Assembly (NCBI GenBank): GCA_947177425.1
Contig: CAMWUN010000005.1
Span: 1 to 64,000, forward strand
Length of the DNA: 64,000 bases
Direction: 5' to 3'
DNA from: an uncultured bacterium
GTDB taxonomy: Bacteria; Bacillota; Clostridia; Lachnospirales; Lachnospiraceae
Positions 32,010 through 56,583 of this stretch are shown in pieces. How positions within the stretch are numbered: position 1 is the stretch's first letter; each line of letters begins with the position of its first letter. The position numbers and the translations under genes were made by a program. The notes below the pieces were generated by a model. The model searched no databases and was not told where the DNA came from. It saw only the letters and a list, made by a program, of their open reading frames with translations.

Positions 32010-32059
32010 AGAGCCTCAGCCGGGCAGAGGAGCAATGAATGATTTTATCTCCTCTGCCC
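32010..32059 (-). terminator. Terminator between convergent GH3 and AAA/nuclease genes
   Basis: GGGCAGAGGAG pairs perfectly with CTCCTCTGCCC across a 16-base loop, overlapping the stop of the AAA/PD-(D/E)XK gene. On the minus strand an 11-base spacer and then a TTTTT run follow. No T run follows on the plus strand. Confidence 0.5.
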
Positions 32060-33646
32060 ATACGTTATGTTTCCAAGCTTCTCTATCACACAGCTATGCG
32101 GTTTGCTTTCCTTATCCTTATCCTTGTCATAGTTCACTCCCACAAGCATTATTTCACCGCTGAAACCTTCCAGCGCTTTGAAATAATGCCTATCTTTAAT
32201 CTGCTGTATCGCTGTGCAGGCTGATTTATCATATTTTAATTCTACTATAATTGCAGGCTTCCCGGTATGTGGCAACGGAAGAAAAACAACGTCGGCAAAA
32301 CCGCGCCCTGCTGGAAGTTCCCGGATTATTCTATAATCCTTCCTTGCGCTGTAGTATGCCAGACTGATAGCACACCCAAGCGAATTCTCGTCATTATAAG
32401 TAAGTATGGAAGCTACCTCCGTATGCGCCCTGTCAAGCCCTTCCGCAACACGTTTTTCATTGCCCGAAAGTGTGTCTTCAAGAAGTTTTTCAGATGCCTT
32501 CAGTACGCGCATAACTTCCTGCCATCCTCCGACGCTCATAGCATTTTCAAATTCCTCAATAATTTCCTTGTTGGGAATGAAAGATTCCTTTTTCTCTGAG
32601 TCATAGGCAAGATATCCCAAATGAATCAGCAGTGTCAACACATCATCTTTTGTTTTAAACGTACGCATATCATTCTGGAAGCTGCGTGTGTTCACCTTAA
32701 CCCGGCCGCCGCCAAGCATCTGAACAATATCTGAACGCAGTCCGTCAAAATCCATATCCATATAGATTTTCAATGCCTCATAAGTCTCTGTGGAAGTCCA
32801 GTAATTAGAAAAATCCTGACAGCGCATTGCCTCAACCACTGATCTTGGGTTATAAATATGCTGGAACTTTTTAAACATATATCCGTCATACCATCTGCCT
32901 GTCGCCTCAAAATCCATATGATACTGTTCACATAAGTTCTTTACTTCTGCCTCTGTAAATCCGGTATATTCCTCAAAAACATATTGGCTGGTCATCGAAT
33001 ATTCAGCAAACATATTCAGGGCAGAGTGCGTACCATATTTTTTTACCGGAAGAATTCCCGTCATATAAGCCAGTGCGACATAAGGCTGGTCTTTCAAAAG
33101 GTTACGCAGGAAATCAAGATAATGCTTCTGCAACTCCTCCTCCTCCTGCTTTTCACGCATCACACAATCCCACTCATCTATCAGAAAAACAAACTGCCTG
33201 TCTGTTTCCACATAAATATTCTCCAGAACAACGGCAAGATCCGTTTCATGTTCCGAAAACAGTCCCCCGTATACCCTGCGTATCTCTGCAATAACAACCT
33301 GCTCTAAATATTCCGTCACTTCCTGATTTCTGGCTTTGCCCAAAAGCTGCTGCATATTAAGAAAAATTACATCATACTTGTTCAAGTGTTCTTTAAAGGT
33401 TTCATTATTTTCTATTTTATAACCTGTAAACAACGCTTCTGAATCGCAGCCGCAGCTATAATAAGCTGCCAGCATCTCAAGTGCCATGGATTTTCCAAAG
33501 CGCCGGGGTCTGCTGACACAAATAAACTGCTCTCTTGTATTTAAACATTTATTGGTATATGCTATCAGTTCTGTCTTATCCACATATATTTCTGAACGGA
33601 CCGCTTTCCAAAAACTTTTATTTCCCGGATTCAGATAAATTCCCAT
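32045..33646 (-). CDS. AAA-ATPase-like protein with C-terminal PD-(D/E)XK nuclease domain
   Basis: This is the DUF1703-type architecture. The N-terminal AAA-like domain has SRPRRFGKSMALEML (P-loop) and FVFLIDEWDCVM (Walker B). The C-terminal fold has GFADVVF and VELKYDKSA, fitting the Asp and ExK of a PD-(D/E)XK nuclease. These proteins are numerous in gut Bacillota and Bacteroidota; their function is unproven, with mobile-element or defence roles suggested. I start at the ATG 33646 (GGGAGGT upstream, giving MGIYLNPGN), not at 33673. It stands alone between the GH3 and the small-protein repeat. Confidence 0.88.
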   Translation of the reverse strand: MGIYLNPGNKSFWKAVRSEIYVDKTELIAYTNKCLNTREQFICVSRPRRFGKSMALEMLAAYYSCGCDSEALFTGYKIENNETFKEHLNKYDVIFLNMQQLLGKARNQEVTEYLEQVVIAEIRRVYGGLFSEHETDLAVVLENIYVETDRQFVFLIDEWDCVMREKQEEEELQKHYLDFLRNLLKDQPYVALAYMTGILPVKKYGTHSALNMFAEYSMTSQYVFEEYTGFTEAEVKNLCEQYHMDFEATGRWYDGYMFKKFQHIYNPRSVVEAMRCQDFSNYWTSTETYEALKIYMDMDFDGLRSDIVQMLGGGRVKVNTRSFQNDMRTFKTKDDVLTLLIHLGYLAYDSEKKESFIPNKEIIEEFENAMSVGGWQEVMRVLKASEKLLEDTLSGNEKRVAEGLDRAHTEVASILTYNDENSLGCAISLAYYSARKDYRIIRELPAGRGFADVVFLPLPHTGKPAIIVELKYDKSACTAIQQIKDRHYFKALEGFSGEIMLVGVNYDKDKDKESKPHSCVIEKLGNITYGQRR

Positions 33647-33722
33647 TCCCCGTACCTCCCAAAGTTTAAACAATTATATCAAATTCTTTTTTCTTTATCT
33701 ACTGCCAATTTGCATGGACATC

Positions 33723-33769
33723 AAAAAGAGCCAGTAACCTGCATTTCCATGCACTTACCGGCTCTTTTA
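33723..33769. terminator. Terminator of small-protein gene copy 1
   Basis: AAAAGAGCCAGTAA pairs with TTACCGGCTCTTTT around a 17-base loop with one mismatch. A and T tails on both sides make it potentially bidirectional. The same hairpin is found in copy 2. Confidence 0.85.
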
Positions 33770-33812
33770 CTCTCTAAAATTATTCTTTTGTTCCTCCATA
33801 CCGCTTATCAGC

Positions 33813-33998
33813 CTATTTCTTTAACATCTGATAAACAAGGGCTGTATTGGTATTTCCCGACATTGCAAGCATGCCGCATGCGATTTCCGCACCATGCTCT
33901 TCCATTGTTGTCCTGAAATATTTTGCAATTCTCTCCTTAAGGGATACTCTGTTTCTGCCTTCTGTATAGGCTTTTCCTTTTAATGCTATTGTACTCAT
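33813..33998 (-). CDS. 61-residue small protein, copy 1 (unknown function)
   Basis: The small, basic, soluble protein starts MSTIALKGKAYTEGRNRV and ends YQMLKK. It has no signal peptide, membrane helix or double-glycine leader, and a single Cys (EIACGML). GAGAGGT precedes the ATG and a strong terminator follows. The near-identical copy at 42522-42707 differs at 11 of 186 bases, 8 of them synonymous (protein changes K/E, H/Y, T/A). That pattern supports a translated, selected gene. I do not recognise the family. It lies just downstream of the ABC operon terminator and has its own 5' region. Confidence 0.8.
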   Translation of the reverse strand: MSTIALKGKAYTEGRNRVSLKERIAKYFRTTMEEHGAEIACGMLAMSGNTNTALVYQMLKK

Positions 33999-34017
33999 AA
34001 CTTAACCTCTCTTTCTT

Positions 34018-34055
34018 TTTAACATAAGGATGGCTGGCACAGCCTGGCATCCGTT
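34018..34055 (+). repeat. Dispersed REP-like palindromic repeat, module A (second copy)
   Basis: TTAACATAAGGATGGCTGGC followed by an imperfect palindrome (GGATGGCTGGC...GCCTGGCATCC) matches 20044-20088 read on the opposite strand. A module-B-like stretch (about 34053-34092) follows directly, as it does at purA. Confidence 0.75.
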
Positions 34056-34159
34056 GTTACAATAAGTTAAACCGCGAAGCATGGCAGCGTTTGCTGCTGT
34101 TTTGCTTTCGCTTTACATGTTATATCTTACAGCTTAAAAAAGAGGAATTCTAGGTTGGA

Positions 34160-34190
34160 TTTTGACTCTTTTTAAGGCAATATTGACTTT
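34160..34190. promoter_or_regulatory. TTGAC direct repeats spaced 21 bp (copy 1)
   Basis: TTGAC starts at 34162 and again at 34183, two helical turns apart, inside TTTTGACTC...ATTGACTTT. Equivalent pairs are at 42838/42859 and, reading the minus strand, at 42364-42389 before the GH39 operon. A 21-bp period suits AraC-type DNA-binding domains such as that of the YesN-like regulator encoded nearby. Confidence 0.6.
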
Positions 34191-34193
34191 TTA

Positions 34194-34230
34194 TTTACAA
34201 TAGACTGGCTTGCGAAACATGGCAGTTCCC
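34194..34230 (+). repeat. Dispersed repeat, module B
   Basis: TTACAATAGACTGGCTTGCG and the following bases resemble stretches at 19975-20012 (minus), 34053-34092 (plus) and 56584-56622 (minus). The core is TAAGCTGGYTTGC followed by an A/G-rich tract and GCGYTTG. Similarity is partial. Confidence 0.5.
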
Positions 34231-34262
34231 TATGCAGCACGGCGTTGGCAGGCAGCAGAAAA

Positions 34263-34286
34263 CCGCAAAACTTTTGCGTTTTGCGG
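34263..34286 (-). terminator. Terminator of the GH39/two-component/ABC operon
   Basis: A 9-bp perfect stem (CCGCAAAAC / GTTTTGCGG, 6-base loop) with TTTT on the minus-strand side lies about 50 bases after the last permease stop. Confidence 0.75.
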
Positions 34287-34338
34287 CTTCCTCTATTATT
34301 CCATATTCATTTTATACTATACTATACTTTCCATACCT

Positions 34339-35178
34339 TTAGCCTTTTACAGCGCCAACCGTAAAGCTTTCCTGAACCTGCTTGCTCAGCATCAGATAAA
34401 TTACAACTGTCGGCAGTGTCGCGATTACCATGCCTGCGCCTATGATTCCCCAGTTCGTGGAATGCTCTCCCACAAAGGACATGATACCTACAGGCAGTGT
34501 CTTGTATTCCGCGCTGTCCACAAATGTGTTTGCAAACAGCAGTTCATTCCATGTATTTAAAAACGTAAAGATACATGCCGTGGCAATTCCGGGCTTTATC
34601 ATAGGGAAAATAATCCTGAAAAACATGGAAAATATATTACAGCCGTCTATACATGCGGCTTCTTCAATTTCTCTGGGCAGGGATTTGAAGAATCCTCCTA
34701 AAATCATAACGCTCATGGGCATTGCAAAAGTGATGTAGGGGAGAAGCAGACCTAAATATCCTCTTCTTACTCCCATCATGTCAAGTCCCTGGAACAGGGG
34801 AAGCAAAGTAGCCTGCACGGGAATCATAATGCCAAGACTGAAAATTACAGCAACAATCCCCTTTGCTTTCCAGTACATTCTGTTAATTGCATATGCCGCC
34901 ATTGCTGACAGCAGGGTTGCGATAACTACGGTCAGTACAGCATACAAAACCGAATTCAGCAGATAATGCAGAATATTTCCTCCCATTAAGGCTTTTGAAT
35001 AGTTTTCCAGGCGCCATACTTTTGGCAGGCCCATCAAATTGTTTGAATCGAATATCTCCGTATTACTTTTAAAGGAAAATGTTATGAGCCAGTAAAAAGG
35101 AAAGATCTGGATAAAGGTAAACGCCAGCAAAAACACGTATATCAAAACTCTCTTGATTTTATTAAAATTTATTTCCAT
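34339..35178 (-). CDS. Carbohydrate ABC transporter permease, MalG type
   Basis: This 279-residue inner-membrane protein has about six membrane segments and the EAA loop EIEEAACIDGCNIFSMFFRI, which contacts the ATPase. The N-terminal IQIFPFYWLITFSFKSNTE is typical of MalG/CUT1 permeases. AAAGGAG precedes the ATG. It is the last gene of the GH39 operon, 12 bases after the MalF-type permease. No ATPase gene is in the operon; CUT1 systems of Firmicutes commonly share an MsmK-type ATPase encoded elsewhere. Confidence 0.94.
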   Translation of the reverse strand: MEINFNKIKRVLIYVFLLAFTFIQIFPFYWLITFSFKSNTEIFDSNNLMGLPKVWRLENYSKALMGGNILHYLLNSVLYAVLTVVIATLLSAMAAYAINRMYWKAKGIVAVIFSLGIMIPVQATLLPLFQGLDMMGVRRGYLGLLLPYITFAMPMSVMILGGFFKSLPREIEEAACIDGCNIFSMFFRIIFPMIKPGIATACIFTFLNTWNELLFANTFVDSAEYKTLPVGIMSFVGEHSTNWGIIGAGMVIATLPTVVIYLMLSKQVQESFTVGAVKG

Positions 35179-35190
35179 ACCCCTCTCCTT

Positions 35191-36078
35191 TTAAATTGCC
35201 GATGCATTTTCTTCAGATTTTTTAAAGATACAATTCAGCAGAAAACTGAACAGCAGACACTCAAACACGATGAAAAACGCCTGAGCGCTGCCATAACCGT
35301 ACCGACACTTGACGAAAAGGTTATCATACATCAAAGTTGCAGGAACTTCACTGGCATGATTGGGGCCGCCGCCAGTCATAACGTATACCAGATCAAATAC
35401 TCTGAGAGAACCGACCAGGGCAAACGTTGCACTGACTTTAATCGTGGGCATAAGCAGCGGGATGGTAATTTTCATTGCCGCCTTAAACCCGGTGGCACCG
35501 TCCAGTTTCGCCGCCTCATAATATTCAGGGGAAATATTCTTAACCCCTGCGTAGAGGATGACCATATGGTACCCGATGCTTTGCCAGACTGCCGGAATGA
35601 CAGTTGTCATATATGCGGTTTTTGAATTTACCAGCCATGCAATGTCATCTGTACAGCCAAAAAATCCCAATATTGCATTTAGAAGGCCGTCACTGTTAAA
35701 AATTTTACACCAGAGTTGCCCGATAACCATACTTGAAATAACCACAGGCAGGAAAAACACTGTCCTGTAAAATCCTTCTCCTTTTACCCCGTTTGCCAGC
35801 AAAATAGCAAGCAGCAGCGCAATTGGGAGCTGCACAAACAAAGAACCAGCCGCCAGTATGAACGAATTTAAAATAGATTTCAGAAAATAAGCGTCTGCCG
35901 CAAACAAATCAATATAATTCTGCAAGCCTATAAAAGTCTTCTTTCCAATGCCATCGTAATCAAACAATCCATAATATCCAGTAATAAACAGTGGAACAAC
36001 TCCCATGGCAATAAACAAAATCAATGCCGGCGCAACAAAAATCGCTATGTACAACTTATTACTCAATAATCTCTTCAT
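35191..36078 (-). CDS. Carbohydrate ABC transporter permease, MalF/UgpA type
   Basis: This 295-residue membrane protein has about six helices and the EAA loop EYYEAAKLDGATGFKAAMKI. The N-terminal LYIAIFVAPALILFIAMGVVP is the usual first helix of CUT1 permeases. It pairs with the MalG-type permease and the lipoprotein binding protein on either side. ACAGGAG precedes the ATG, 4 bases after the solute-binding gene stop. Confidence 0.94.
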   Translation of the reverse strand: MKRLLSNKLYIAIFVAPALILFIAMGVVPLFITGYYGLFDYDGIGKKTFIGLQNYIDLFAADAYFLKSILNSFILAAGSLFVQLPIALLLAILLANGVKGEGFYRTVFFLPVVISSMVIGQLWCKIFNSDGLLNAILGFFGCTDDIAWLVNSKTAYMTTVIPAVWQSIGYHMVILYAGVKNISPEYYEAAKLDGATGFKAAMKITIPLLMPTIKVSATFALVGSLRVFDLVYVMTGGGPNHASEVPATLMYDNLFVKCRYGYGSAQAFFIVFECLLFSFLLNCIFKKSEENASAI

Positions 36079-36082
36079 AGCA

Positions 36083-37369
36083 TTACTCCTGTGTACTGAT
36101 TGCTTCCTGATGTGCCTTCATAAAACTTTCAGCGCTTGCGCCCTCAACCAGCAGAGACTGTGCCTGTTCCAGATGGACAGCCGTTGCGTTTGCATCCAGA
36201 ATGCCGTCCCAGTTTTGAATTCCTGTTTCCACGCTGTTATACAGATTGTATAAGGATACAAATGTCGGGGAAAGAGCAGACTCATCAACGTCTACATTCC
36301 AGCAGGGAAATCCCGAACCAATTTCAAGCGCCTTACTGCCCATCTGTTCTGCAATATAGATTGCAAAGTCTGCTGCCTCTGCCGGTGTATCCGTGTTTTT
36401 GTTTACAAAGAAGGATGCGCTTGCACCGCCTGCATAATCGGTTCTGCTCTGTCCTTCCGAAACGACGGGGAAAGTGATTACTTCCACATCCGTTACCACG
36501 CTTTCTTCTGTATTATCAATCGTACCTGCAAACCAGCTTCCATCCAACTGCATGGCAGCCTTTCCGTTTAAGAAATCTGCTGTCGCTTCCGGTTCTCCAT
36601 CCTCTAAGGGATTCTTTCCGAAAATGCCTTTCTGGTTCAATTCGATTACTTTTTCAGCAGCCCTTTTAAACCCTTCATTGGTAAATGCAGTCTCCCCAAG
36701 CAAAGCTGCCTGTACTTCCCCGGCGCCCACTTCCCTAAGGGCAACGGCTTCATACAAAGCGCCTGCAAGCCAGGAATCTTTTGCACCAATCACCAGCGGC
36801 GTAACCCCGTCCAGCGTCTGAAGCTTTTCTCCTGCTGCAATCAGTTCATCATAAGTGGAAGGGATTTCTGCCCCAGCCTCCTCAAACAGTGTCTTATTGC
36901 AAAACAGACACATCATATAGCTGTCGATTGGAAGTGCATATAAATCATCTCCAAACTCAAAAGCGCTTGTGGAGCCTTCTTTTACCCTGCTCATAACCTC
37001 ATCTGTCACATAATCATTCAGAGGTAATACTTTATCTGCATTAACCAGTTGTTTCAGTTTGCCGGGGGACCAGTAATAAAAGACGTCTATGCCCGATGCG
37101 CTGCTTGCAAATTCAGTGGAAATCTTGGTCTTGTAAGATTCCGTATCCAGTCCGTGCAGTTCAATCTTGATATTCTCATGCTCACTTTCATAATTGTCTA
37201 CTGCTGCCAGAAATGTCTTTGTCTGCTCACTTTCCGGATCTGTGAACTGGTGCCATACATCCAGTACCACTTCATCGCTTTCCTGCTTTGCCGCCGGGGA
37301 ACATGCCGATACGCCAGTCAGAACTGCAATACTCATGCACACTGCCGCAACCTTTTTCCAATTTTTCAT
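36083..37369 (-). CDS. Sugar ABC transporter solute-binding lipoprotein (family 1)
   Basis: It begins with a lipoprotein signal peptide and lipobox (VLTGVSACSP, modified Cys about residue 23). The mature part has the type-1 binding-protein fold (VVLDVWHQFTDPESEQTKTF, LNGKAAMQLDGSWFAG). It delivers oligosaccharide to the adjacent permeases on the outside of the membrane. AGGAGG precedes the ATG. A hairpin separates it from the regulator genes upstream, consistent with the higher dose of binding protein often needed. The specific sugar is not predictable; GH39 in the operon hints at xylo-oligosaccharides. Confidence 0.94.
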   Translation of the reverse strand: MKNWKKVAAVCMSIAVLTGVSACSPAAKQESDEVVLDVWHQFTDPESEQTKTFLAAVDNYESEHENIKIELHGLDTESYKTKISTEFASSASGIDVFYYWSPGKLKQLVNADKVLPLNDYVTDEVMSRVKEGSTSAFEFGDDLYALPIDSYMMCLFCNKTLFEEAGAEIPSTYDELIAAGEKLQTLDGVTPLVIGAKDSWLAGALYEAVALREVGAGEVQAALLGETAFTNEGFKRAAEKVIELNQKGIFGKNPLEDGEPEATADFLNGKAAMQLDGSWFAGTIDNTEESVVTDVEVITFPVVSEGQSRTDYAGGASASFFVNKNTDTPAEAADFAIYIAEQMGSKALEIGSGFPCWNVDVDESALSPTFVSLYNLYNSVETGIQNWDGILDANATAVHLEQAQSLLVEGASAESFMKAHQEAISTQE

Positions 37370-37403
37370 TATTTTTTCCTCCTTCTAAGAACAGCCTTTT
37401 CCT

Positions 37404-37435
37404 GTGGCTTTTAACATATGTTTATCATAAGCCAC
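37404..37435 (-). promoter_or_regulatory. Intercistronic hairpin between response regulator and solute-binding gene
   Basis: GTGGCTT pairs with AAGCCAC around an 18-base AT-rich loop, between the regulator stop and the binding-protein start. It could be an mRNA-stabilising or partial-termination element that sets separate levels for regulators and transporter. No long T run follows. Confidence 0.45.
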
Positions 37436-37458
37436 ATGCCAGTCTGCCTCAATTCAAA

Positions 37459-39015
37459 TTATTCACCTAAAAGGTTGCGATTTTTACTTTTGTACTGATT
37501 GACCGTTTTCCCTGTATATTTTTTAAAGCATGTTCCAAAGTAATGTGCATCCGGCATGCCCACCGCCGCCGCCACCTCATACACCTTTAAATGCGTATTA
37601 TCAAACAGATCCATGCTTTTTTCCATGCGCTTTCTCATAATATATTTCGTCAGGCTTTCCCCTGTGACCTGTTTGAATATACGGCTGAGATAGCTGGAAT
37701 TTACAAACAAATCAGAAGCAATCCTGTTCAGGGACAATCCCTCTTTTCCAAGATTTTCTGCAATATACTCCTGGGCTGTTAAAACAATACTGTTCCCCAC
37801 ATGATTTTCAGAAATGATTTCAATCACTTTTTCAATAAAAGAATAAAATATTCTGCAGAATTCATGCAGGGTGTTTATATTGGAAATTGCCGTAAACAGT
37901 TCCATCTGCTCCGAATCATCCAGATATTTATTGTATTCTTTTAAGATAGACAAAGAATTATGCAGAATTAAGCCCCCCAGATTCCGCAGTTGGGAAATCA
38001 TCATCGGTCCGTCATAGACATATTTTTTCAAATACTGGTCAATGATTGCAACAGCCGCTTCCAGATCACCGCCCTTTACTGCAATTCTGTATTCGTCAAA
38101 ATTTACCGGGCAGGAGCGCTTGATATGCAGCATAAGGCCAATATAGTCCTCATAAAAAATCAGTATTTTGCTCTTATCCCTGATGATGTTCAGCGCCGCT
38201 TCCTCACATTCGGAAAGCATTCTGGTACAGTCTGTAATGCCCTTGCAGCAGTGGCTGACGGACATCACACGGATACTGTCATTGTTTACTTTTGTCATCT
38301 TTAAGAATGCAAGTTCAATCTCTTCCTTGATATTTTCTTTTTCTTCAATTATAAAGAAAATAATATCTTTATCCAGAAAAGTATACCAATATCTCCCGCC
38401 TGTCATGCTGTTCATGACTTCCAGGACCGATGATGTGAAAATCTTTTCAACCCCGTCAACCTTTATAAAAATTCCCCGGACTTTATTCTTGTGGAGGAAT
38501 AGCATGTTATATGCAGATAGCTTTTCCTCCGCGTCTTTCTCACTGATATCGCCCCTTACAATCCTGCGCACCAGTTCCTGGCAAAGAACAGGTAAATTTT
38601 CCTTCTGCTTTAATTCTTCTTTTTTGGATTTTAAAATTGCCTGTTTCGCTTTTTCGGCTGTCGCAATCAGTTCATCTGTCAAAATCGGCTTTAAAAGAAA
38701 ATCCTCCACCCCTATATGAATTGCTTCTCTGGCATATTCAAATTCACGATAACCTGTCACAATGACTATATGGACAGACGGATAAGCTTCTCTGATTCTT
38801 TTACTTAATTCCAGCCCGTCCATCATTGGCATATTGATATCCGTATAAACAAGATCCGGAAGTTCCCTTTCCATTATCTTCAAAGCCTCTGCCGCAGACT
38901 GGACAGTTGCCATGATACGGAATCCATGCCTGTCCCATTCAACACTTTTTGCCATCAATATACCTTCATATTTTTCATCATCTATGATCAATATGCTAAT
39001 GATATCCTTCTCCAT
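37459..39015 (-). CDS. YesN-type response regulator (receiver + AraC DNA-binding domain)
   Basis: Residues 1-125 are a receiver domain (ILIIDDEKYEGILM, phosphoacceptor in LVYTDINMPMMDG, Asp about 57). Residues about 415-518 are an AraC domain (LSLNRIASDLFVNSSYLSRIF and VAAAVGMPDAHYFGTCFKKY). The middle 250 residues are a linker typical of the YesN group. It overlaps the kinase gene by 20 bases. Partner kinase, ABC transporter and GH39 in one operon indicate that it activates sugar uptake and hydrolysis. The TTGAC pairs 21 bp apart near the operon start are candidate targets. Confidence 0.95.
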   Translation of the reverse strand: MEKDIISILIIDDEKYEGILMAKSVEWDRHGFRIMATVQSAAEALKIMERELPDLVYTDINMPMMDGLELSKRIREAYPSVHIVIVTGYREFEYAREAIHIGVEDFLLKPILTDELIATAEKAKQAILKSKKEELKQKENLPVLCQELVRRIVRGDISEKDAEEKLSAYNMLFLHKNKVRGIFIKVDGVEKIFTSSVLEVMNSMTGGRYWYTFLDKDIIFFIIEEKENIKEEIELAFLKMTKVNNDSIRVMSVSHCCKGITDCTRMLSECEEAALNIIRDKSKILIFYEDYIGLMLHIKRSCPVNFDEYRIAVKGGDLEAAVAIIDQYLKKYVYDGPMMISQLRNLGGLILHNSLSILKEYNKYLDDSEQMELFTAISNINTLHEFCRIFYSFIEKVIEIISENHVGNSIVLTAQEYIAENLGKEGLSLNRIASDLFVNSSYLSRIFKQVTGESLTKYIMRKRMEKSMDLFDNTHLKVYEVAAAVGMPDAHYFGTCFKKYTGKTVNQYKSKNRNLLGE

Positions 39016-40777
39016 CCTTTTCCTCTTTCTTACACGGAATTCTTACTTTAATCTCGGTTTCTTTTCCAAAATCACTGTAGATACTCAAAGCATCTTCAAT
39101 TCCGTAGAAAAGTTCTATCCGCTGTTTGACACTGTAAATACCAAATCCTGATTTCCTTGTCCTGTACTCTCCCCTTAATATTTTATCTATCTTATCCCGC
39201 TCAATACCTGCCCCATTATCCCATACAGAAAATTCAATCATTTCATCTCCCAATGCCTTTACAGATATTCTTAATTCTCCCGCGCACTCTTTCTGGCGCA
39301 TACCGTGGTGAATGGCGTTTTCCACCAGCGGCTGCAGGATAAGCTTTAAAATCAAAACCTCCTGTACTTTCTCATCAACATCGTATGTTACCCGGATATC
39401 CCCATCGTAGCGGATATTTATAATTGTTATATAGCTTTTTATGATATCCAGTTCCTCCCAGACAAAAAGCATTTGCCGTCCGCTGTTTAAACTGTTCCGG
39501 TAAAACCGGCCAAGCGCCTGTGTCATCTGAAAGCTTTTTTTCTGATCTCCAATCAGCGTCAGTCCGCTGATTGCATCCAGTGTGTTATATAAAAAATGAG
39601 GGCTTATCTGTTCCAGTATCAAATTTAGTTCGTTTTCCCGAAGCAGCTTTTCTTTCTGTTTTGTCTGCTCCAGTAACCCCCGTATGGAATGAAGCATACC
39701 ATTATAGGCACGCTTTAAGTTGCTGATTTCATCTTCACATCCTTCTTCTATAGCCATATCCTCCGGTATGGAATCTGCAGATGTCATCTGCTCCTCCATT
39801 TTCTGAATCGGCCAGCTCAGCACATAGGAAATATAGAACCAGCACAAAATAAGCAGAAGCACATTAAAGCTAAGTACAAACAAAGTCTGCCCATATCCGG
39901 CGGACACGGCAAAGCTGTCTAAAGGTATCTTGGCGACAATATTCCAGCCCTCTACCACGGAAGAAATCTTTTTATATACCGCGGAATTCTTTCCGGCTTT
40001 TACAATTTTTACCTCATCTTCGGCCAGACTTAAGATAATATCTTTATCTGTTTTATATTGCCCACTGTCTTCTGTTCCAAAAATCAGTTCATCACCCTGC
40101 AAAATATAAAAACCGGAATTCAAATTCTCACCAACTGTTGAAAAGCTGTTGCGAATCGTCTTTTCATCAATATTCACCATAAGAATCCCAAGCTTTGAAT
40201 AGTCAGTCTTCTTTTTTATCAGCTTTATCATAGACAAAACATTTCTGTTCTGGCTTTTATAGCTGACCATGCCTCCTCCATCCGTTTCAAATATCCAATT
40301 GCCGTCCAAATCAAGCACCCTGTCATACCAGTATGCCTCCTCAACCGGAATATTGTTTTTAAAGACCACCTCATCTCTGTTACAGCTATATACATTCCCT
40401 AAATTGTCATAGAATATAATAGACGATATATAGTCGCCGGCCAGCATAATATTAACCAGACAGTCCTGTAAGTCTGATCGTGTTTCCACAGTCAGGTTTC
40501 CCTTTGATATTTCATCCAGTGTATCCTGAAACATTTTGCTCCAGAAAACAGCATAAGTATCCTGATTAACATGCTCAATCATCAGATTCATATTGTTATC
40601 AATCGCAAGCAATGTCTGGGTTGTCATTTCCCCAATCTGGTTCAGCATGGCTTTTTTGTTATTGTAGACCACAGCCGCAATGGATACCAGGGACGTGGCT
40701 ATAATGCATGTGACGAACAATCCCCACAGCTTTGTTTTAATCTTCACTTTCTTCCAGGCAATTCTATTCAATCTCAT
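38996..40777 (-). CDS. YesM-type sensor histidine kinase
   Basis: After an N-terminal membrane helix (LWGLFVTCIIATSLVSIAAVV) comes an extracellular sensor region of about 240 residues, a second helix (LFVLSFNVLLLILCWFYI), HAMP-like linker, HisKA_7TM-type phosphoacceptor ISPHFLYNTLDAI and an ATPase domain (VENAIHHGMRQK, DNGAGIERD, GFGIYSVKQRIELFYG). The track start 40954 lies inside the GH39 gene. The ATG at 40777 (MRLNRIAWKKVKIKT), 8 bases after the GH39 stop, is the better start, though its ribosome site is weak. It senses an extracellular sugar or the binding protein and phosphorylates the adjacent YesN regulator. Confidence 0.93.
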   Translation of the reverse strand: MRLNRIAWKKVKIKTKLWGLFVTCIIATSLVSIAAVVYNNKKAMLNQIGEMTTQTLLAIDNNMNLMIEHVNQDTYAVFWSKMFQDTLDEISKGNLTVETRSDLQDCLVNIMLAGDYISSIIFYDNLGNVYSCNRDEVVFKNNIPVEEAYWYDRVLDLDGNWIFETDGGGMVSYKSQNRNVLSMIKLIKKKTDYSKLGILMVNIDEKTIRNSFSTVGENLNSGFYILQGDELIFGTEDSGQYKTDKDIILSLAEDEVKIVKAGKNSAVYKKISSVVEGWNIVAKIPLDSFAVSAGYGQTLFVLSFNVLLLILCWFYISYVLSWPIQKMEEQMTSADSIPEDMAIEEGCEDEISNLKRAYNGMLHSIRGLLEQTKQKEKLLRENELNLILEQISPHFLYNTLDAISGLTLIGDQKKSFQMTQALGRFYRNSLNSGRQMLFVWEELDIIKSYITIINIRYDGDIRVTYDVDEKVQEVLILKLILQPLVENAIHHGMRQKECAGELRISVKALGDEMIEFSVWDNGAGIERDKIDKILRGEYRTRKSGFGIYSVKQRIELFYGIEDALSIYSDFGKETEIKVRIPCKKEEKDGEGYH

Positions 40778-40785
40778 GGCTGTTT

Positions 40786-42252
40786 TTATTTTAGCTTGAT
40801 TAATGCGACTCCATGTTCCGGAAGGCAGAATTCCAAGCTTATCCCATTCTCTGTTTTTGTTACACATAGCGTTTCTTCCTGAACAAAAGATGCTCTTTTT
40901 AAACTCTTTATCTGCTCTGTATCCGGATAAACCGGTGAACCCATTTTCTCCCACTCGCTTCTTGCATTTGCATGGGCATCATCAATTCTCTGAATGGAGG
41001 CAGAAACTACTGAAATATTCTTTATGTCAATTTTTATGTTTTCTGCTTTTATCGGCTTTCCAGGCATCTCATGATTATATGCAATAATACACATTTTTTC
41101 GTCCCTGCCGCTGGCTGCAAAAACACCTGCTGTTCCCTGCTCGGCTTCCTTCTGGTACTGCCGGCTGCCCAACTGATGCATCAATTCCAGGGCACGATAG
41201 GCAGGTTTGGGAATTCCATGGATAGTCTGCAGTCCAAACCCGCCGCGAAATTCTCCCGGCGCCTGCCCATGCTCCTCAAAAATGTCCGAAAATGTCCAAA
41301 AAGAGTATATATCAGCATATCCATAGTTATCAAGCAAAGTCTTTACCATCAATGCTGAACTGTATGAGGTGTCATGGACTGCATCCCCTTCGTTGGCGGA
41401 TGTGTTCCATTCCGTATAGTATAGCGGCAGTTCTCCTGCCTCAGCCTTTGCTTTTTTCGCCATTCTTGTAAGAATTCCTCTTCTGTCTACTTCCCCACCG
41501 GTGTCCCTTTTTTCCTTTTGGATAAAATCATCCAGGTTCATATCCCCGTTCCAGTTAGGATCATCGGTCGGATAATGATGCGTTGAAATGAAATCTATAG
41601 GCACATGATTCTTTTTGCAATATTCAATTATATCCAAAATCCATGCATTATTTGCAGTAGAGGGACCTCCTGTTCTTAATCCGGCATCAACAGATTTTAT
41701 TGCCCTTACTGTATGTTCATATAAAGTAAAATAATCTTCCTGATTCCCAGCAAAAAAGAACTTAAGGTTTGGCTCATTCCAAACTTCAAAATACCATTTT
41801 TGCACCTCTTCCACGCCATAACGTTCCACTAGATGCTGGATAAATGTGACGATAAAGGAATCCCAGAGCTGAAAATCCTTTGGCATGGTAACATTTCCTT
41901 TATAATGAAAGCACGTTTGCTCTCCGGACGCAAAAGGCGATGGCATGAAGCTAATCTCAATAAACGGCCGCATATCTATACTTAACAGAAAATCAATAAT
42001 ATTATCTATATTTACAAAATTGTATTCCAGACCCCCATGCTCTTTTTCAAAAACCACACTCATATCATCATTCAAAATTCCGTGAAAACGCACATATTGA
42101 AATCCAACATCCTCTTTCACCTTTTTCAATTGATTTCGGTAATCCTCTCTTAACGCTGTATAGCCATGGCATGACCCGACACACTTTTCCCAATAATGTT
42201 CAAAATCTTTCGTTGATGCAGCAGCATCCAGATGAAACTGTAAATGACCCAT
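40786..42252 (-). CDS. Glycoside hydrolase family 39 (beta-xylosidase-like)
   Basis: The TIM-barrel GH39 enzyme has acid/base motif YFEVWNEPNLKFFF and nucleophile motif LYYTEWNTSANEG. It also has the N-terminal signature YVRFHGILNDDM and a C-terminal beta-sandwich. GH39 enzymes are mainly beta-xylosidases, some alpha-iduronidase-like. The ATG at 42252 (GGAGG 8 bases upstream, MGHLQFHLD) replaces the track start. No signal peptide: it is intracellular. It is the first gene of the two-component/ABC operon, so it probably cleaves the imported oligosaccharide. Confidence 0.92.
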   Translation of the reverse strand: MGHLQFHLDAAASTKDFEHYWEKCVGSCHGYTALREDYRNQLKKVKEDVGFQYVRFHGILNDDMSVVFEKEHGGLEYNFVNIDNIIDFLLSIDMRPFIEISFMPSPFASGEQTCFHYKGNVTMPKDFQLWDSFIVTFIQHLVERYGVEEVQKWYFEVWNEPNLKFFFAGNQEDYFTLYEHTVRAIKSVDAGLRTGGPSTANNAWILDIIEYCKKNHVPIDFISTHHYPTDDPNWNGDMNLDDFIQKEKRDTGGEVDRRGILTRMAKKAKAEAGELPLYYTEWNTSANEGDAVHDTSYSSALMVKTLLDNYGYADIYSFWTFSDIFEEHGQAPGEFRGGFGLQTIHGIPKPAYRALELMHQLGSRQYQKEAEQGTAGVFAASGRDEKMCIIAYNHEMPGKPIKAENIKIDIKNISVVSASIQRIDDAHANARSEWEKMGSPVYPDTEQIKSLKRASFVQEETLCVTKTENGISLEFCLPEHGVALIKLK

Positions 42253-42361
42253 TTCGATTTCCTCCAAATTAAAAATATGATTCCATCTTACATGATTTCG
42301 TAATGATGATTAAATTATTTCTATCATCTGCGTTTATCCAAATCAATACGACCATTTTATA

Positions 42362-42392
42362 AAGTCAAAATTGCAACATAAAATGTCAAAAC
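42362..42392 (-). promoter_or_regulatory. TTGAC direct repeats upstream of the GH39 operon
   Basis: On the minus strand TTTTGACATTTTATGTTGCA continues into a second TTTTGACTTTATA, the TTGAC cores 21 bp apart. It closely resembles the elements in both small-protein modules (shared GCAATNTTGACTTT). It lies about 110 bases before the GH39 start. The core promoter between it and the gene is not obvious. Confidence 0.55.
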
Positions 42393-42432
42393 TACACACT
42401 CCCTGCCATATTTCGCGGTCCAGCTTATTGTA

Positions 42433-42477
42433 AAAAGAGCCAGTAACCTGCATTTCCATGCGTTTACTGGCTCTTTT
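42433..42477. terminator. Terminator of small-protein gene copy 2
   Basis: AAAAGAGCCAGTAA pairs perfectly with TTACTGGCTCTTTT; A- and T-rich tails allow function in both directions. The stem differs from copy 1 by a base change that repairs the mismatch. Confidence 0.85.
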
Positions 42478-42521
42478 ATTCCCGAAAGTCATTCTTTTGT
42501 TTTTCCATACCGCTTATCAGC

Positions 42522-42707
42522 CTATTTCTTTAGCATCTGATAAACAAGGGCTGCATTGGTATTCCCTGACATTGCAAGCATACCGCAAGCGATTTCCGCA
42601 CCATACTCTTCCATTGTTGTCCTGAAATATTCTGCGATTCTCTCCTTAAGGGATACTCTGTTTCTGCCTTCTGTGTAGGCTTTTCCTTTTAAAGCTATTG
42701 TACTCAT
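42522..42707 (-). CDS. 61-residue small protein, copy 2 (unknown function)
   Basis: This is the paralogue of the 33813-33998 product with three replacements (E for K, Y for H, A for T). The predicted middle helix SLKERIAEYFRTTMEEYG is amphipathic in pattern. The ribosome site and 5' leader are conserved between copies. Just upstream is the AraC gene in the opposite direction, and downstream is the GH39 operon. Possible roles are a small regulatory or peptide signal linked to that operon, or a selfish duplicated unit; I cannot choose from sequence. Confidence 0.8.
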   Translation of the reverse strand: MSTIALKGKAYTEGRNRVSLKERIAEYFRTTMEEYGAEIACGMLAMSGNTNAALVYQMLKK

Positions 42708-42837
42708 AACTTAACCTCTCTTTCTTTTTAACATCAGGATGGCTGGCATCCTTTGTCACAATAAGCTGTTTTTGTTTTCGCTTTCGCTTTACATGTTATA
42801 TCTTACAGCTTAAAAGAGAGGAATTCTAGGTTAGATT

Positions 42838-42887
42838 TTGACTCTTTTTAAGGCGATATTGACTTTTCATTTCACTTTTGCTAAATT
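42838..42887 (+). promoter_or_regulatory. TTGAC repeats (copy 2) overlapping the AraC-gene promoter
   Basis: TTGAC starts at 42838 and 42859. The second one also forms a -35 (TTGACT, 42859-42864) with TAAATT 17 bases later (42882-42887), placed to transcribe the AraC gene at 43001. A regulator bound here could act on both the small-protein gene and the AraC gene. Confidence 0.5.
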
Positions 42888-43000: not shown

Positions 43001-43849
43001 ATGGAAAACTCATACTATGCAGCAGCAAGCCCCTTGTCCACGGGAATATCCATTGCATACACCACCGCTCCCGGCGGTTATTTTCCCCTGCACTGGCATG
43101 AAGAACTGGAAATCCTGTATCCCCTAAACGGTGCGGCGGATATCACCATTGAAGGGAAAAATTTCCGTCTTTTGAACAAACATATGCTTGTTGTGGAATC
43201 CCGCAAGGTACACAGCACTTACACTTATGACGAACTCTCTATGTTCGTCTGTATTCATGTATCCAAAAAGCATATCCGTCAGTATTTCCCGGAAATAGAC
43301 TCTTATCAGATTCTCTGTACCCCGGAGGACGCATCCGACGAACTGTTTCCCTTATACCGGAGCGCCTGCGAACTGCTAGAAGCTCTGACAAGACTGTATA
43401 TGGAGGAGCCGCCCACTTACCGCATGGAAGCCGAAGGGATTGTGCTTCAGATCGTATCCCGCTTAATCCGCTTTTTTTCCGTAAAAAAGCCCCAGCCATA
43501 CCATGGCAGCGACACCCCTGCAATGGAACGCATCCGGGATGTCATCACCTATGTGGAGGAACATTTCAGGGAACCTGTTGCCCTGGACGATGCTGCCAGC
43601 CTGTTAGGTCTGGGCAGGGAGTATTTCTGCCGCTTTTTTAAGAAAAATATGGGCATGACCTTTTTAAACTATTTAAATGAGGTCAGACTGGCTCATGCTT
43701 ATGCTGATTTGTTAAATACAAATGCCCCCATTTCCGAAGTCATGGAGGCAAATGGTTTTACAAACCAGAAACTGTTTAATTCTTCTTTTAAAGCGCTCTA
43801 TGGATGCACGCCTTCATCCATCCGCCGGGAGCATTCCAATGCAGAATAA
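43001..43849 (+). CDS. AraC-family transcriptional regulator (cupin + HTH)
   Basis: The cupin sensor has PLHWHEELEILYPLNG (about residues 27-42). The C-terminal AraC domain has VALDDAASLLGLGREYFCRFF and SEVMEANGFTNQKLFNSSFK. The expected role is a sugar-responsive activator. GCAGGAG precedes the ATG. The sialate-O-acetylesterase-like gene follows on the same strand 300 bases later with its own promoter and dyad. This makes the AraC protein a candidate regulator of that gene and of the GH3 at 29730, which has the same promoter element. Confidence 0.92.
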   Translation: MENSYYAAASPLSTGISIAYTTAPGGYFPLHWHEELEILYPLNGAADITIEGKNFRLLNKHMLVVESRKVHSTYTYDELSMFVCIHVSKKHIRQYFPEIDSYQILCTPEDASDELFPLYRSACELLEALTRLYMEEPPTYRMEAEGIVLQIVSRLIRFFSVKKPQPYHGSDTPAMERIRDVITYVEEHFREPVALDDAASLLGLGREYFCRFFKKNMGMTFLNYLNEVRLAHAYADLLNTNAPISEVMEANGFTNQKLFNSSFKALYGCTPSSIRREHSNAE

Positions 43850-43940
43850 CTGCTTTTTACCATACAAATCCAACACTCCGCGGCACCTGTCAAATGCGTC
43901 AATCCGCCAGTTCCCCTTGTATCTTAGCTTAATCATTCAT

Positions 43941-44030
43941 TAAATAGTACGACAGCATTTATTCTTTATACGATATAATTTATGGTTTTTGCAGCATACA
44001 ATTGACACCGGAGAAGGATTCACTTATCTT
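43941..44030 (+). promoter_or_regulatory. Promoter and degenerate dyad of the sialate-O-acetylesterase-like gene
   Basis: AAATAGT-N5-AGCATTT (43942-43960) is followed by ATTCTTTATACGATATAATT, almost identical to the element at 29611-29650. TTGACA (44002-44007) and TATCTT (44025-44030) have 17-base spacing, as at the GH3 gene. Confidence 0.8.
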
Positions 44031-44149
44031 AAAATCATCCTTTGAAGGGATACGTAATAATAAAAACACTCTCTCAGCCTATGCAATACAATTTCAATGT
44101 AAAAGAGGGTATATCCTGTTTTACAGACATGGAAAGGAGACATGTTTCT

Positions 44150-45715
44150 ATGAAAACAGCATCTATTTTTACATCCCATATGATATTTCAGCGTGGAAAA
44201 GATATACATATCTGGGGTGTCGGAGAAGAAAACGAAAAAGTATCCGTAACGCTGCAATATTCAGAATCCGGCCAGCCTGTGGTCATCCCCTCATCCTGCT
44301 CTGTGCAGACTGCAGTACAGGACGGGTGCTGGCATATCATACTTCCGCCTTTGGATGTCTGCAGAAATGTAGTCTGCATAATCTGTGGGGAATCAGAAAC
44401 CATTACTCTGGAAGATATTTCGATTGGAGATGTATATCTTGCCGGAGGCCAGTCCAATATGGAATTCTGGATGCGCTATGACGCAGACCTGGCGGCAGAA
44501 CGAAATATCTGTGCCAATCAGGATATCCGCTTTTATGACTGTCCCGAAATATGCTATGAAGGTCAGGAACAGGACTTTGATTATTCCAAAATGGGATTCT
44601 GGAGAACCTGTGACCCAGAAAATATCGAATATTTCAGTGCCGTTGGCTACTATTTTGCCAAAGAAATCCAGCGAAGCCAGCAGATTCCTGTCGGCATCAT
44701 CGGTTGTAACTGGGGCGGCAGTACCGCTTCTGCATGGATGGATGAAGAACACCTGTCAAAACACGGACAAATCTGGCTGGACGAATACCAGGAAGGTCTG
44801 AAAAATATTCCGGAAGATTACGTTGAGAACTTCCGCAAAAATCCGATGAATGACCGGGGAAATCCATTTGAGAATGCATTCGGCGAAACCATGCTCTTCG
44901 GCCTCTCCCACGAAGAACAGCTTAAATTCATGAAAGAGAATCCTTCCGACGACTCTATAAACCTGATTGGTCCATGCCACCAGAACCGTCCCGGTGGTCT
45001 ATATGAATTTATGCTGAAAAAAACTGCACCTTTTCCCGTCAGCGGTGTGCTCTGGTATCAGGGAGAAAGTGACGAAACCCACGCTGCAATCTACAAGGAT
45101 GTGCTTTCTGATATGATTGACTGCTGGAGAGAATTGTGGCATGACACACTGCCCTTCTTCTGCGTACAGCTTGCGCCTTTTGACGTCTGGCTGGAATGCA
45201 CCGGCGATAACTTCCCTGTCATAAGGCAGCAGCAGTATGACCTATCCCGGGAAAAAGAAGGTGTATTCTTGATTTCCAGTTCCGATGGGGGCATGCGCTA
45301 TGACATCCATCCGAAAAAAAAGCAGCCTATCGGATACCGGCTGGCGTTATGTGCACGCAGCTATATATATGGAGAGGATATCTCCTGGGATGCGCCCGTG
45401 ATGGACAGCGTCGTGCTAAAAGACAGAACACTCCTTCTGCACTTTGCACATGCTTATGAAGGATTGTCCATGCAGGGCAGTCTGCAGGCATTACAGATTT
45501 TCGGCATAACCCCAGAAGGTAAACGGACGGAAATACCTGCGGACTCCTGCCAGTATATGGCAGGCGGCGAACAGATAACCGTTATTCTTCCTGATGCGGT
45601 TCTTTTTGCCGAACTGGAAATCGCATTCGCATATACCCCCTACTATGAAGTGAACCTGTACAACAGCGCAGGCATTCCCGCTATTCCGTCCCGGATTGTT
45701 ATGAAAACCATGTAA
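44150..45715 (+). CDS. Sialate O-acetylesterase-like SGNH carbohydrate esterase
   Basis: The SGNH/DUF303 pattern is seen: AGGQSNMEFWMRYD (nucleophile Ser), GCNWGGSTASAWM and LWYQGESDE, with a late DGGMRYDIHPKKK region likely holding the Asp-x-His pair. Members remove O-acetyl groups from sialic acid or plant-glycan sugars. The track start (44042) is upstream of a weak region; the ATG at 44150 (MKTASIFTSHM) has GGAGA at normal spacing. There is no signal peptide. Given the rhamnosidase context, plant-glycan deacetylation is at least as likely as sialate. Confidence 0.88.
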   Translation: MKTASIFTSHMIFQRGKDIHIWGVGEENEKVSVTLQYSESGQPVVIPSSCSVQTAVQDGCWHIILPPLDVCRNVVCIICGESETITLEDISIGDVYLAGGQSNMEFWMRYDADLAAERNICANQDIRFYDCPEICYEGQEQDFDYSKMGFWRTCDPENIEYFSAVGYYFAKEIQRSQQIPVGIIGCNWGGSTASAWMDEEHLSKHGQIWLDEYQEGLKNIPEDYVENFRKNPMNDRGNPFENAFGETMLFGLSHEEQLKFMKENPSDDSINLIGPCHQNRPGGLYEFMLKKTAPFPVSGVLWYQGESDETHAAIYKDVLSDMIDCWRELWHDTLPFFCVQLAPFDVWLECTGDNFPVIRQQQYDLSREKEGVFLISSSDGGMRYDIHPKKKQPIGYRLALCARSYIYGEDISWDAPVMDSVVLKDRTLLLHFAHAYEGLSMQGSLQALQIFGITPEGKRTEIPADSCQYMAGGEQITVILPDAVLFAELEIAFAYTPYYEVNLYNSAGIPAIPSRIVMKTM

Positions 45716-45768
45716 ACATTCTATTGCAGATTTACATATTTAATGCTATCGTAATTTCCTGTCTGCAA

Positions 45769-45804
45769 AAAATGCTCCCTGCGTCTGCACGCAGAGAGCA
45801 TTTT
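45769..45804. terminator. Bidirectional terminator between convergent esterase genes
   Basis: AAAATGCTCCCTGCG pairs with CGCAGAGAGCATTTT around TCTGCA with one mismatch. A-rich and T-rich flanks serve both strands. Confidence 0.85.
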
Positions 45805-45821
45805 GTATCATGTCCCATCCG

Positions 45822-46850
45822 CTATATAAGTGTCCTGTCCAGCCAGTTGACAAACAGATCCTTCCACTGCTCCACCGCAGAATAATCCGGCACGCTCATG
45901 CCGGGTATGGGAGGCGCAGGCTGGGGTTTACAGCCTCCGAATCCATGTCCCCCATAGGGAAATATATGCATTTCAAAAGGTACCTTTTTCTCCCTGCATG
46001 CCCCTGCAAAATCCACCATATGGAAAGGGTCAATTACGTTATCATCCAGGGTATTGCACAAAAACATGGGAGCATCACCCTCTTTCACGTGGGTTTTCAT
46101 CTCATACCGCTCACTGAACTGCTTTCTTTTCTCCGGGTTATTGTAAGTTTCCACATCAGCCATAACTACCTGAATCTTGTCGTCTGCCACTGTTACCGCC
46201 GGATAAATAAGTCCCACCCCGTTGGGAATCCCGCTGACCTTATCAATTTCATCCGGTTCGTATCCCGCTTCTTCTACCGGCGCATCCCCGAAGCAGACCG
46301 CCTGCACACCTGCAAGATTGCCCCCTGCTGAAAATCCCAGGGTCGCTATCCCGTCCGGTTCAAAGCCATACTCTTTCGCATGAAACCGCAGGAAACGGAC
46401 TGCCCGCTGGAGGTCAAGAAACATATAAGGTGCTCTGTAAGGATAAGACCTGTACCAGAGTACAAAGCAACTGATTCCGGCCGCATTCAGAAACTCTGCA
46501 ATATCCTTCCCTTCGTTTTCAATGCTTTTGGACAGATATGCGCCTCCCGGGCAGGAAATCACGCATTTTTTACTGCCTGGAACAAGATAAGGCACTAAAA
46601 AGGGAATATCGTCATAGGTTTCCTCTGCATAACCATCCTTAATTTCCTCCCGGTATGTAAGGGTGTCATTTCCCCGCATATCACCGATTAAATCCGTTGT
46701 TTTATCCCAGATACCGGGATATTTGGTAAAAATCTCCTGAAAAGTCAGGGTATCATCCCAGTTCATCCGGTCATGTTTGCTTTTTCCCGTATTGCCGGGC
46801 ACTTTATTTCCCCAAATAGGAATTCTTTCTTTGGATTTTTCAAACTTCAT
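45822..46850 (-). CDS. Alpha/beta hydrolase, carbohydrate esterase-like
   Basis: The esterase/lipase fold has oxyanion motif CPGGAYLSKS, nucleophile elbow GFSAGGNLAG, acid region NTLDDNVID and catalytic His in YGGHGFG. This resembles acetyl-xylan/BD-FAE-type carbohydrate esterases. The ATG at 46850 (AGAGGT 7 bases before) is preferred to the GTG at 46859. The gene overlaps the beta-phosphoglucomutase gene by about 11 bases, so they are translationally coupled. It has no signal peptide and a predicted cytoplasmic location. Confidence 0.87.
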   Translation of the reverse strand: MKFEKSKERIPIWGNKVPGNTGKSKHDRMNWDDTLTFQEIFTKYPGIWDKTTDLIGDMRGNDTLTYREEIKDGYAEETYDDIPFLVPYLVPGSKKCVISCPGGAYLSKSIENEGKDIAEFLNAAGISCFVLWYRSYPYRAPYMFLDLQRAVRFLRFHAKEYGFEPDGIATLGFSAGGNLAGVQAVCFGDAPVEEAGYEPDEIDKVSGIPNGVGLIYPAVTVADDKIQVVMADVETYNNPEKRKQFSERYEMKTHVKEGDAPMFLCNTLDDNVIDPFHMVDFAGACREKKVPFEMHIFPYGGHGFGGCKPQPAPPIPGMSVPDYSAVEQWKDLFVNWLDRTLI

Positions 46851-47496
46851 CCTTTTCACCTCTGGTAACTGATAATAAGTCAGAAAACTTTTCTAATGGA
46901 TAGGTTACTTTTTCGTGGGTTGCCGCTTCACCGATACCTGCCCCATGGAATCCGCCCGCCACAGCCGCGTCAATTCCAGCCAGCGCATCTTCCACCACCA
47001 GACAGTCGGAAGGATCAAGGCCCAGAAAGGCCGCTGCCTTCAAAAAGACTTCCGGATCCGGTTTGGAATAGGTGATATTCGTGCCATCGCTGATTGCGTC
47101 AAAATATCCTTCCAGCCCCAATTGCTTTAAAATCATCTTCGTATTTTTGCTGGAAGATCCGATAGCAAGTTTATGCCCCCTGTTCCTTAACTCATCCAGG
47201 GTGTTCTTTACCTCTTCTGACAGATCCGCAGGAGACATCTGCTCCAGAAGCTTTTTATATATTTCATTTTTCTGCGCCGCCAGCTCTTCCTTCTCCTTTT
47301 CGCTGTATGACTTTTCACTGCGCTCCAGAATAATATCCAGGCTTGCCATCCGGCTGACACCCCTTAAACGGTTATTGATTACCTCATCAAAATACACACC
47401 GATACCGTCCGCCATCTCTTTCCATGCCTGATAATGATACTGGTCTGTAAAGCAGATTACCCCGTCCAAATCAAAAATAATTCCCTTGTAGCTCAT
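46840..47496 (-). CDS. pgmB: Beta-phosphoglucomutase (HAD superfamily)
   Basis: The HAD nucleophile motif IFDLDGVICFTDQYHYQAW and the cap signature RLRGVSRMASLDIIL are specific for beta-phosphoglucomutase, as are GSSSKNT and KPDPEVFLKAA. It converts beta-glucose-1-phosphate to glucose-6-phosphate. Such enzymes usually follow an inverting or beta-glucose-1-P-forming disaccharide phosphorylase, but none is seen in this window. The start at 47496 (GGAG 10 bases upstream) replaces the track start. It is first in a two-gene operon with the esterase. Confidence 0.92.
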   Translation of the reverse strand: MSYKGIIFDLDGVICFTDQYHYQAWKEMADGIGVYFDEVINNRLRGVSRMASLDIILERSEKSYSEKEKEELAAQKNEIYKKLLEQMSPADLSEEVKNTLDELRNRGHKLAIGSSSKNTKMILKQLGLEGYFDAISDGTNITYSKPDPEVFLKAAAFLGLDPSDCLVVEDALAGIDAAVAGGFHGAGIGEAATHEKVTYPLEKFSDLLSVTRGEKDEV

Positions 47497-47646
47497 ACTG
47501 AAATCTCCTCTCAATTTATACTTGTTATTTGTACTAAAACTATATCATTTTCTTTTTGTGCATTCAAGAAACTTAACTGACAATCTTCTTGCCCCGCCCA
47601 CTTGATTATTATATAATAACCTTAGAAAAACGGGGGTTTGAATACA

Positions 47647-48893: not shown

Positions 48894-48910
48894 CGAAAAT
48901 TTCTTTCTGG

Positions 48911-48964
48911 TTCCGGCGTTTTGTCCGTTTATCCTGTTTTGCGGATGGACAAAACTGCCGGGAA
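48911..48964. terminator. Long hairpin between convergent exporter and GH78 genes
   Basis: TTCCGGCGTTTTGTCC pairs with GGACAAAACTGCCGGGAA, with an inner ATCC/GGAT stem. It is a stable structure in a 128-base convergent gap. T runs are poor, so factor-independent termination is not certain. Confidence 0.55.
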
Positions 48965-49021
48965 GTCACAGACTGCCTGTTCTCCGCTTTTTGGACTTTT
49001 GCTGTCATTCATTTCCCCAAT

Positions 49022-51763: not shown

Positions 51764-51794
51764 AGCTTACCTCTTCTTTTATGCTGGATTTTAC

Positions 51795-55000: not shown

Positions 55001-55051
55001 TATCCGCGAAACTGCCGCTAGTCAGCATATACAAAGGTATTACATGCATTT

Positions 55052-56542: not shown

Positions 56543-56583
56543 TTTCAATTCCCTTCCTTTATCCAGTTTAATATCGTGGTTCT

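Follow-up and report, generated by a model that had tools for sequence, protein, structure and literature searches.

Two duplicated small-gene units flanking a GH39 operon in a Lachnospiraceae genome probably belong to the regulon of an adjacent AraC-type regulator

The ANR proteins (Aar, Rnr, and Cnr) are helical proteins of 39 to 80 amino acids (aa) encoded near, or divergently from, AraC-family activators, by which they are activated and which they then inhibit (PMC4038620, PMC10148876). They possess one highly conserved Cys, are present in multiple copies in some strains, and have been described from Gram-negative bacteria only (PMC4038620, PMC10148876). Here, we analyzed a comparable arrangement in an uncultured Lachnospiraceae bacterium (GenBank assembly GCA_947177425.1), using positions 1 to 64,000 of contig CAMWUN010000005.1, a stretch of 64,000 nucleotides (nt) referred to below as the window. 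Two units in the same orientation, U1 (33723-34196) and U2 (42432-42872), each encode a 61-aa protein and flank an operon that begins with a glycoside hydrolase family 39 (GH39) gene. Divergent from U2 is the gene for a cupin/AraC-family regulator (43001..43849, plus strand), the presumed master of the units. As with ANR, the unit proteins of this and related genomes are short (41 to 61 aa) and mainly helical by prediction, and their genes lie near or divergent from an AraC activator, on which their expression probably depends. Multiple copies in some genomes and a conserved Cys, the latter not in every member, are further points of agreement; the differences are the cupin-AraC regulator in Lachnospiraceae, a conserved 31-bp operator, and copies that are unlinked or in tandem. 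The locus shares with araC-araBAD and rhaSR a cupin-helix-turn-helix (HTH) regulator divergent from its target, directly repeated half-sites two helical turns apart, and an overlap with the regulator's own promoter, but the target here is a single small-protein gene plus terminator rather than a catabolic operon, and its copies are scattered through the genome. A literature search found no described Lachnospiraceae pair of an AraC protein and a small protein.

U1 and U2 each contain an operator, a leader, the 61-aa gene (33813..33998 and 42522..42707, respectively, both on the minus strand), and an intrinsic terminator. The terminator of U1 (33726..33770, minus strand) has a stem of ∼14 bp and a T-run and folds as a hairpin in the predicted RNA, and that of U2 (42434..42479, minus strand) was identified from sequence. 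A preliminary description of this DNA had reported two same-orientation units sharing terminator, gene, leader, and a TTGAC pair, and the alignment bears this out: the units are alignable end to end, with 91.4% identity over 442 columns. The terminator and gene block (300 nt) is 93% identical and the promoter/operator block (97 nt) 95%, while insertions and deletions are restricted to the leader (10 bp and a hairpin of ∼40 bp resembling repetitive extragenic palindromic [REP] elements). Beginning at the terminator and ending 9 nt beyond the second TTGAC, the similarity is not limited to the coding region. The two genes differ at 11/61 codons, 8 of them synonymously, with a synonymous divergence (dS) of 0.24, and the longest identical run between the units is 41 bp. 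Judged by their sequences, U1 and U2 are old duplicates, and they carry the only two copies of the small gene in the 4.19-Mb draft genome. A search of the window against Rfam returned a tRNA as the sole match, leaving the leader with no RNA family.

The operators of U1 (TTTTGACTCTTTTTAAGGCAATATTGACTTT, 34160..34190) and U2 (42836..42866), both on the plus strand, contain a TTGAC pair at 21 bp start to start, which is the half-site spacing of AraC proteins. A position weight matrix (PWM) built on 12 loci of relatives, with the window excluded, scored them at 47.0 and 49.5, respectively. In U2, the second TTGACT doubles as the predicted −35 element of the araC gene, whose predicted promoter (TTGACT-17-TAAATT, 42859-42887) overlaps the operator. 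A probable −10 element of the U1 small gene (AAGATATAAC, 34120..34128, minus strand), assigned by consensus match only, lies 37 nt from the operator. Against an expectation of 0.11, the window contains three instances of TTGAC-N16-TTGAC, all at this locus (U1, U2, and the operon promoter). As a genome-wide marker of the regulon, the bare pair was rejected: exact pairs numbered 32, versus 45 in a reversed control, so that specificity comes from the internal operator sequence alone. The 31-bp operator is kept at 12 loci outside the window, and downstream of every operator match in the fetched relatives an open reading frame (ORF) of 41 to 61 aa with a ribosome-binding site starts at a distance of 77 to 116 bp. 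Whether a copy is linked or unlinked, the distance between the operator and the −10 element of the small gene is mostly 32 to 39 nt. On the araC side, a −35/−10 pair with a 17-bp spacer is good mainly where the AraC gene is divergent, and the second half-site is usually its −35.

The protein encoded at 43001-43849 has the layout of the AraC/XylS family, a C-terminal double HTH and an N-terminal AraC-binding/cupin domain, with matches to PF12833 (HTH_18), PF00165 (HTH_AraC), and PF02311 (AraC_binding) above the curated cutoffs. Relatives of the small gene were detected in 8/37 genomes of the genus and in 7/397 sampled genomes of the family, own genome counted. AraC orthologs were present in nine of the 37 genus genomes, including 8/8 with the small gene and 1/29 of the others (Fisher P=2.3e-7; 1e-6 when the own genome is left out); the ninth genome, G028, encodes three small genes that escaped the profile because they are of a divergent type. 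The small gene is close to and divergent from the AraC gene at U2 of the window and in L029, G005, G012, G001, L030/G427, G028, and G029. The co-occurrence is more than mere adjacency, because the regulator is on a different contig from the small gene in G021, G023, and G060 and from one of the copies in both G005 and G029. Taken at the level of sequence, the units probably answer to the neighboring AraC-type regulator as a dedicated regulon.

The units have also been duplicated in relatives. In G028, three direct copies, 86 to 90% alike, surround the AraC gene and another, clpP-like gene; in G029, a single operator is followed by four small ORFs in tandem; and G005, G021, G023, and G292 each have two dispersed, unlinked copies. 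None of these duplications includes the operon found here. In every pair of paralogs compared, the similarity ends no more than a few nucleotides from the outer edge of the operator. Between the two species G021 and G023 (L090:7297, L091:7900), 97.8% identity over 7.3 kb continues exactly up to the operator edge, past which the sequences are unrelated.

Lachnospiraceae 1XD21-87 (L029) possesses a locus with one unit and no operon, the arrangement that the preliminary description had proposed to look for in relatives. Its small protein is 85% identical to that of U1 and 90% to that of U2. The L029 unit adjoins the sequence found outside U1 (33611-33725 of the window, 80%) at one end and the AraC gene found outside U2 at the other. 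With both outer flanks around a single unit and no operon between them, the bracket in the window is probably derived. U1 and U2 are 91.4% identical to each other versus 83% to L029, private sites in the three-way alignment number 50 for L029, 14 for U1, and 16 for U2, and the REP-like insertion in the leader is common to U1 and U2 and absent in L029. A more distant relative (L030) likewise has a single unit, divergent from an AraC homolog. These comparisons suggest that the single unit is ancestral, with duplication and arrival of the operon in the lineage of the window. The opposite course, loss of the operon from L029 by recombination between U1 and U2, is disfavored by the closer similarity of U1 and U2 to each other and by their common leader insertion.

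We consider it likely that U1 and U2 represent a duplicated transcription unit within the regulon of the cupin-AraC protein encoded at 43001-43849, each copy being a self-contained monocistronic unit of operator, promoter, leader, gene for a protein of 41 to 61 aa, and terminator. Each monomer of the AraC protein would bind one of the TTGAC half-sites, which are two helical turns apart, and the protein would activate the small gene from a position just upstream of its −35. With the −35 of araC coinciding with the second half-site, the protein would also repress its own synthesis. The ancestral single unit would have been duplicated and the GH39 operon would have come to separate the copies, perhaps at breakpoints marked by REPs, making the bracket a by-product and no device for moving the operon. 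Since the edges of the units are those of a complete transcription unit, apparently run by AraC, their shape is explained without mobility.

The small protein belongs, as far as its sequence tells, to an undescribed family: no family was found among Pfam, NCBIfam, or PHROG models (two matches, both at noise level), and a PDB profile search gave matches at chance level only. Structure prediction yielded a long helix (residues 20 to 46) and a short one (52 to 60) with modest confidence (predicted local distance difference test [pLDDT], 72). The ratio of nonsynonymous to synonymous substitution rates (dN/dS) was 0.09 between U1 and U2 and 0.09 to 0.21 in every pair of paralogs and orthologs tested, and the protein is therefore under purifying selection. 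A prophage or plasmid source of the gene was rejected, since neither viral contigs nor PLSDB plasmids contained a relative, as was an AgrD-like autoinducer, with no family match and a Cys that is not universal.

By analogy, the unit protein may work like ANR, although we do not class it as a member. Its most likely single role would be that of a partner which contacts its AraC activator and adjusts the activity of the latter, additional copies meaning a higher dose; this is speculative, with less than an even chance. For the small protein, the NCBIfam/Pfam search at E values up to 5 found nothing beyond noise, no direct comparison with an Aar sequence being included. The small protein could instead be a downstream effector, in the manner of SgrT with its sugar transporter target, or a signaling peptide that the cupin domain senses, with AraC merely turning the gene on. 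This reading has somewhat less than an even chance. The locus is filled with carbohydrate genes, the proteins are short with a long helix, and recurrent amplification, including tandem copies, suits dose dependence; against it, the relatives share no fixed neighboring transporter, autoinducer-peptide and other NCBIfam/Pfam models are unmatched, and the Cys is missing in the G028 and tandem G029 copies.

As the preliminary description had stated, exactly one operon lies between U1 and U2. By Pfam it comprises genes for GH39, a His kinase, a YesN-type response regulator, a solute-binding protein, and two permeases (34339..42267, minus strand, with the GH39 ATG at ∼42252). The GH39 protein matches PF01229 (Glyco_hydro_39) with 438.7 bits over residues 12 to 465 of 493. 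The content and order from kinase to second permease are those of YesMN two-component/CUT1 ABC operons with GH39. Distant homologs of this core in other Lachnospiraceae genera keep the order with no GH39 gene and no units beside them; GH39 is the first gene here and was not found in eight homologous operons, and the bracketing by two small-gene units is a further difference from the known type. Apart from short fragments, a search of 36 other genomes of the genus and 396 sampled genomes of the family revealed no DNA of the operon. A plasmid source of the GH39 gene was rejected, since matches were distant (<60% identity) and those listed came from other phyla. We regard the operon as probably a bystander, incidental to the duplicated units.

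The operon might nevertheless belong to the same AraC regulon through a TTGAC pair of its own, which would make the locus a co-regulated sugar module, would lend the bracket regulatory significance, and would be compatible with a regulon that includes both units. Its promoter contains a weaker operator-like site (42361..42391, minus strand; exact pair, 42364-42389; PWM score, 14.7) whose binder is ambiguous. This site is the third-best PWM match in the 64 kb, albeit a distant third, and was not equaled anywhere in 4 Mb of Markov sequence, and the eight homologous operons have no such promoter pair. However, the middle of the site is unlike that of the unit operators, and the operon carries its own AraC-type response regulator. 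Moreover, similar 21-bp TTTTGACATTT pairs elsewhere in the genome (L060:1501-1526 and L064:1501-1526) adjoin an AgrC-like gene or precede an ABC exporter, as LytTR-type sites might, which these two perhaps are. Co-regulation of the operon is thus possible but doubtful.

The REP-like family consists of imperfect hairpins of ∼37 nt with 57 matches in the own genome, mostly intergenic, both dispersed and in tandem arrays at ∼37-nt spacing. At least three types share ACATAAG/ACAATAAG...GTT joints. These imperfect palindromes are similar in size and distribution to REP elements and bacterial interspersed mosaic elements (BIMEs), with the difference that the sequence types were seen in these Lachnospiraceae only and that a role in duplication is inferred. 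The U1 leader contains a type A followed by a type B hairpin (34022..34094, plus strand), the insertion absent from L029, and the U2 leader a decayed type A remnant (42731-42747). Type B elements also occur at the new inner junctions, between U1 and the operon (34197..34225, plus strand) and between the operon and U2 (42403..42431, minus strand), each within 1 to 2 nt of the junction and inverted relative to each other. Hairpins at the unit ends may have caused the copying, by recombination or by a REP-associated Y1 transposase, an account that would turn the unit into a small mobile module and is compatible with AraC-run units. Besides the two junctions, REPs lie near the ends of G028 unit a (8 and 60 bp), unit b (24 bp), and the unlinked G005 copy (48 bp), and the end of paralog similarity at the operator edge, in G021/G023 likewise, fits such copying. 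Most dispersed units, however, have no REP nearby, and REPs often follow terminators anyway; we consider REP-mediated duplication rather unlikely. Further REP-like sites are located at 20009-20084 and 56584-56617 and in L003-L020.

The preliminary description had proposed a recombination-based cassette. On this reading, the operon entered, or leaves, by homologous recombination between the direct units as functional ends; one route would be Campbell integration of a circle carrying the operon and a unit. Consistent with this proposal are the empty single-unit site with both outer flanks in L029, the failure to find more than short fragments of the operon DNA in the other genomes searched, and the reported lack of a transposase or integrase, which was likewise absent from the main ORFs that we tested between 29730 and 45715. 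The proposal is borne out in part, in that the L029 site points to an event that made or removed a unit together with the operon. A cassette with the operon as cargo is not supported: units in relatives duplicate without the operon, core homologs elsewhere have no adjoining units, no circular form or second site was seen, and the longest identical run is 41 bp at a dS of 0.24, which shows that the repeats are not kept homogeneous and makes them a poor substrate for frequent excision. Given this divergence and the duplication of units that carry no cargo, the operon would be excised or amplified through the repeats rarely at best, and we find the cassette improbable. Also improbable is a reading of the unit as a mobile regulatory module bounded by REPs, in which a ready-made set of operator, small gene, and terminator is copied around Lachnospiraceae genomes and stays wired to one AraC master, with the small protein feeding back on the activity of that master.

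Several observations weigh against the explanation of U1 and U2 as duplicated, AraC-run units with an ANR-like product. The small proteins of G028 and of the G029 tandem have no conserved Cys and are only weakly similar to the others. Autoregulation is not universal, since inspection of the region ahead of the AraC gene in G021, G023, and G060 showed no operator. Three taxa alone cannot root the split of U1, U2, and L029, and what looks like a late duplication might reflect gene conversion. Terminators commonly have REP hairpins nearby, and many units have none, so a role of REPs at breakpoints is possible, no more. Finally, the case for ANR-like function is one of architecture.

The surroundings of the units also differ between the window and L029. 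A 16.6-kb block of glycoside hydrolase and transporter genes (43841-60421) is missing in L029, where the AraC gene adjoins the gene at 60406. The genes at 60406-63474 (a PP-loop protein, a Ni_insertion protein, and a third gene), which we take to be probable lar-type genes for the nickel-pincer cofactor, are syntenic in L029. On the other side, an AAA-ATPase_like/PDDEXK_9 gene (32045-33673) adjoins U1; in L029, the similarity is lost after the first codons of this gene, and an ORF judged by eye to be IS66-like follows further along. Elsewhere in the window, 24052-25055 and 49590-50590 are 73% similar at the DNA level, within the genes at 23724-26261 and 49022-51763, the latter encoding an alpha-L-rhamnosidase.

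The feature of interest at this locus is thus the repeats rather than the operon. The locus points to a pairing of AraC protein and small protein in gut Lachnospiraceae that is comparable to ANR, with no sequence kinship detected. The regulon would consist of one regulator, one 31-bp site, and one or a few small genes, and with a defined operator and an undescribed, repeatedly duplicated small-protein family, it is directly testable.

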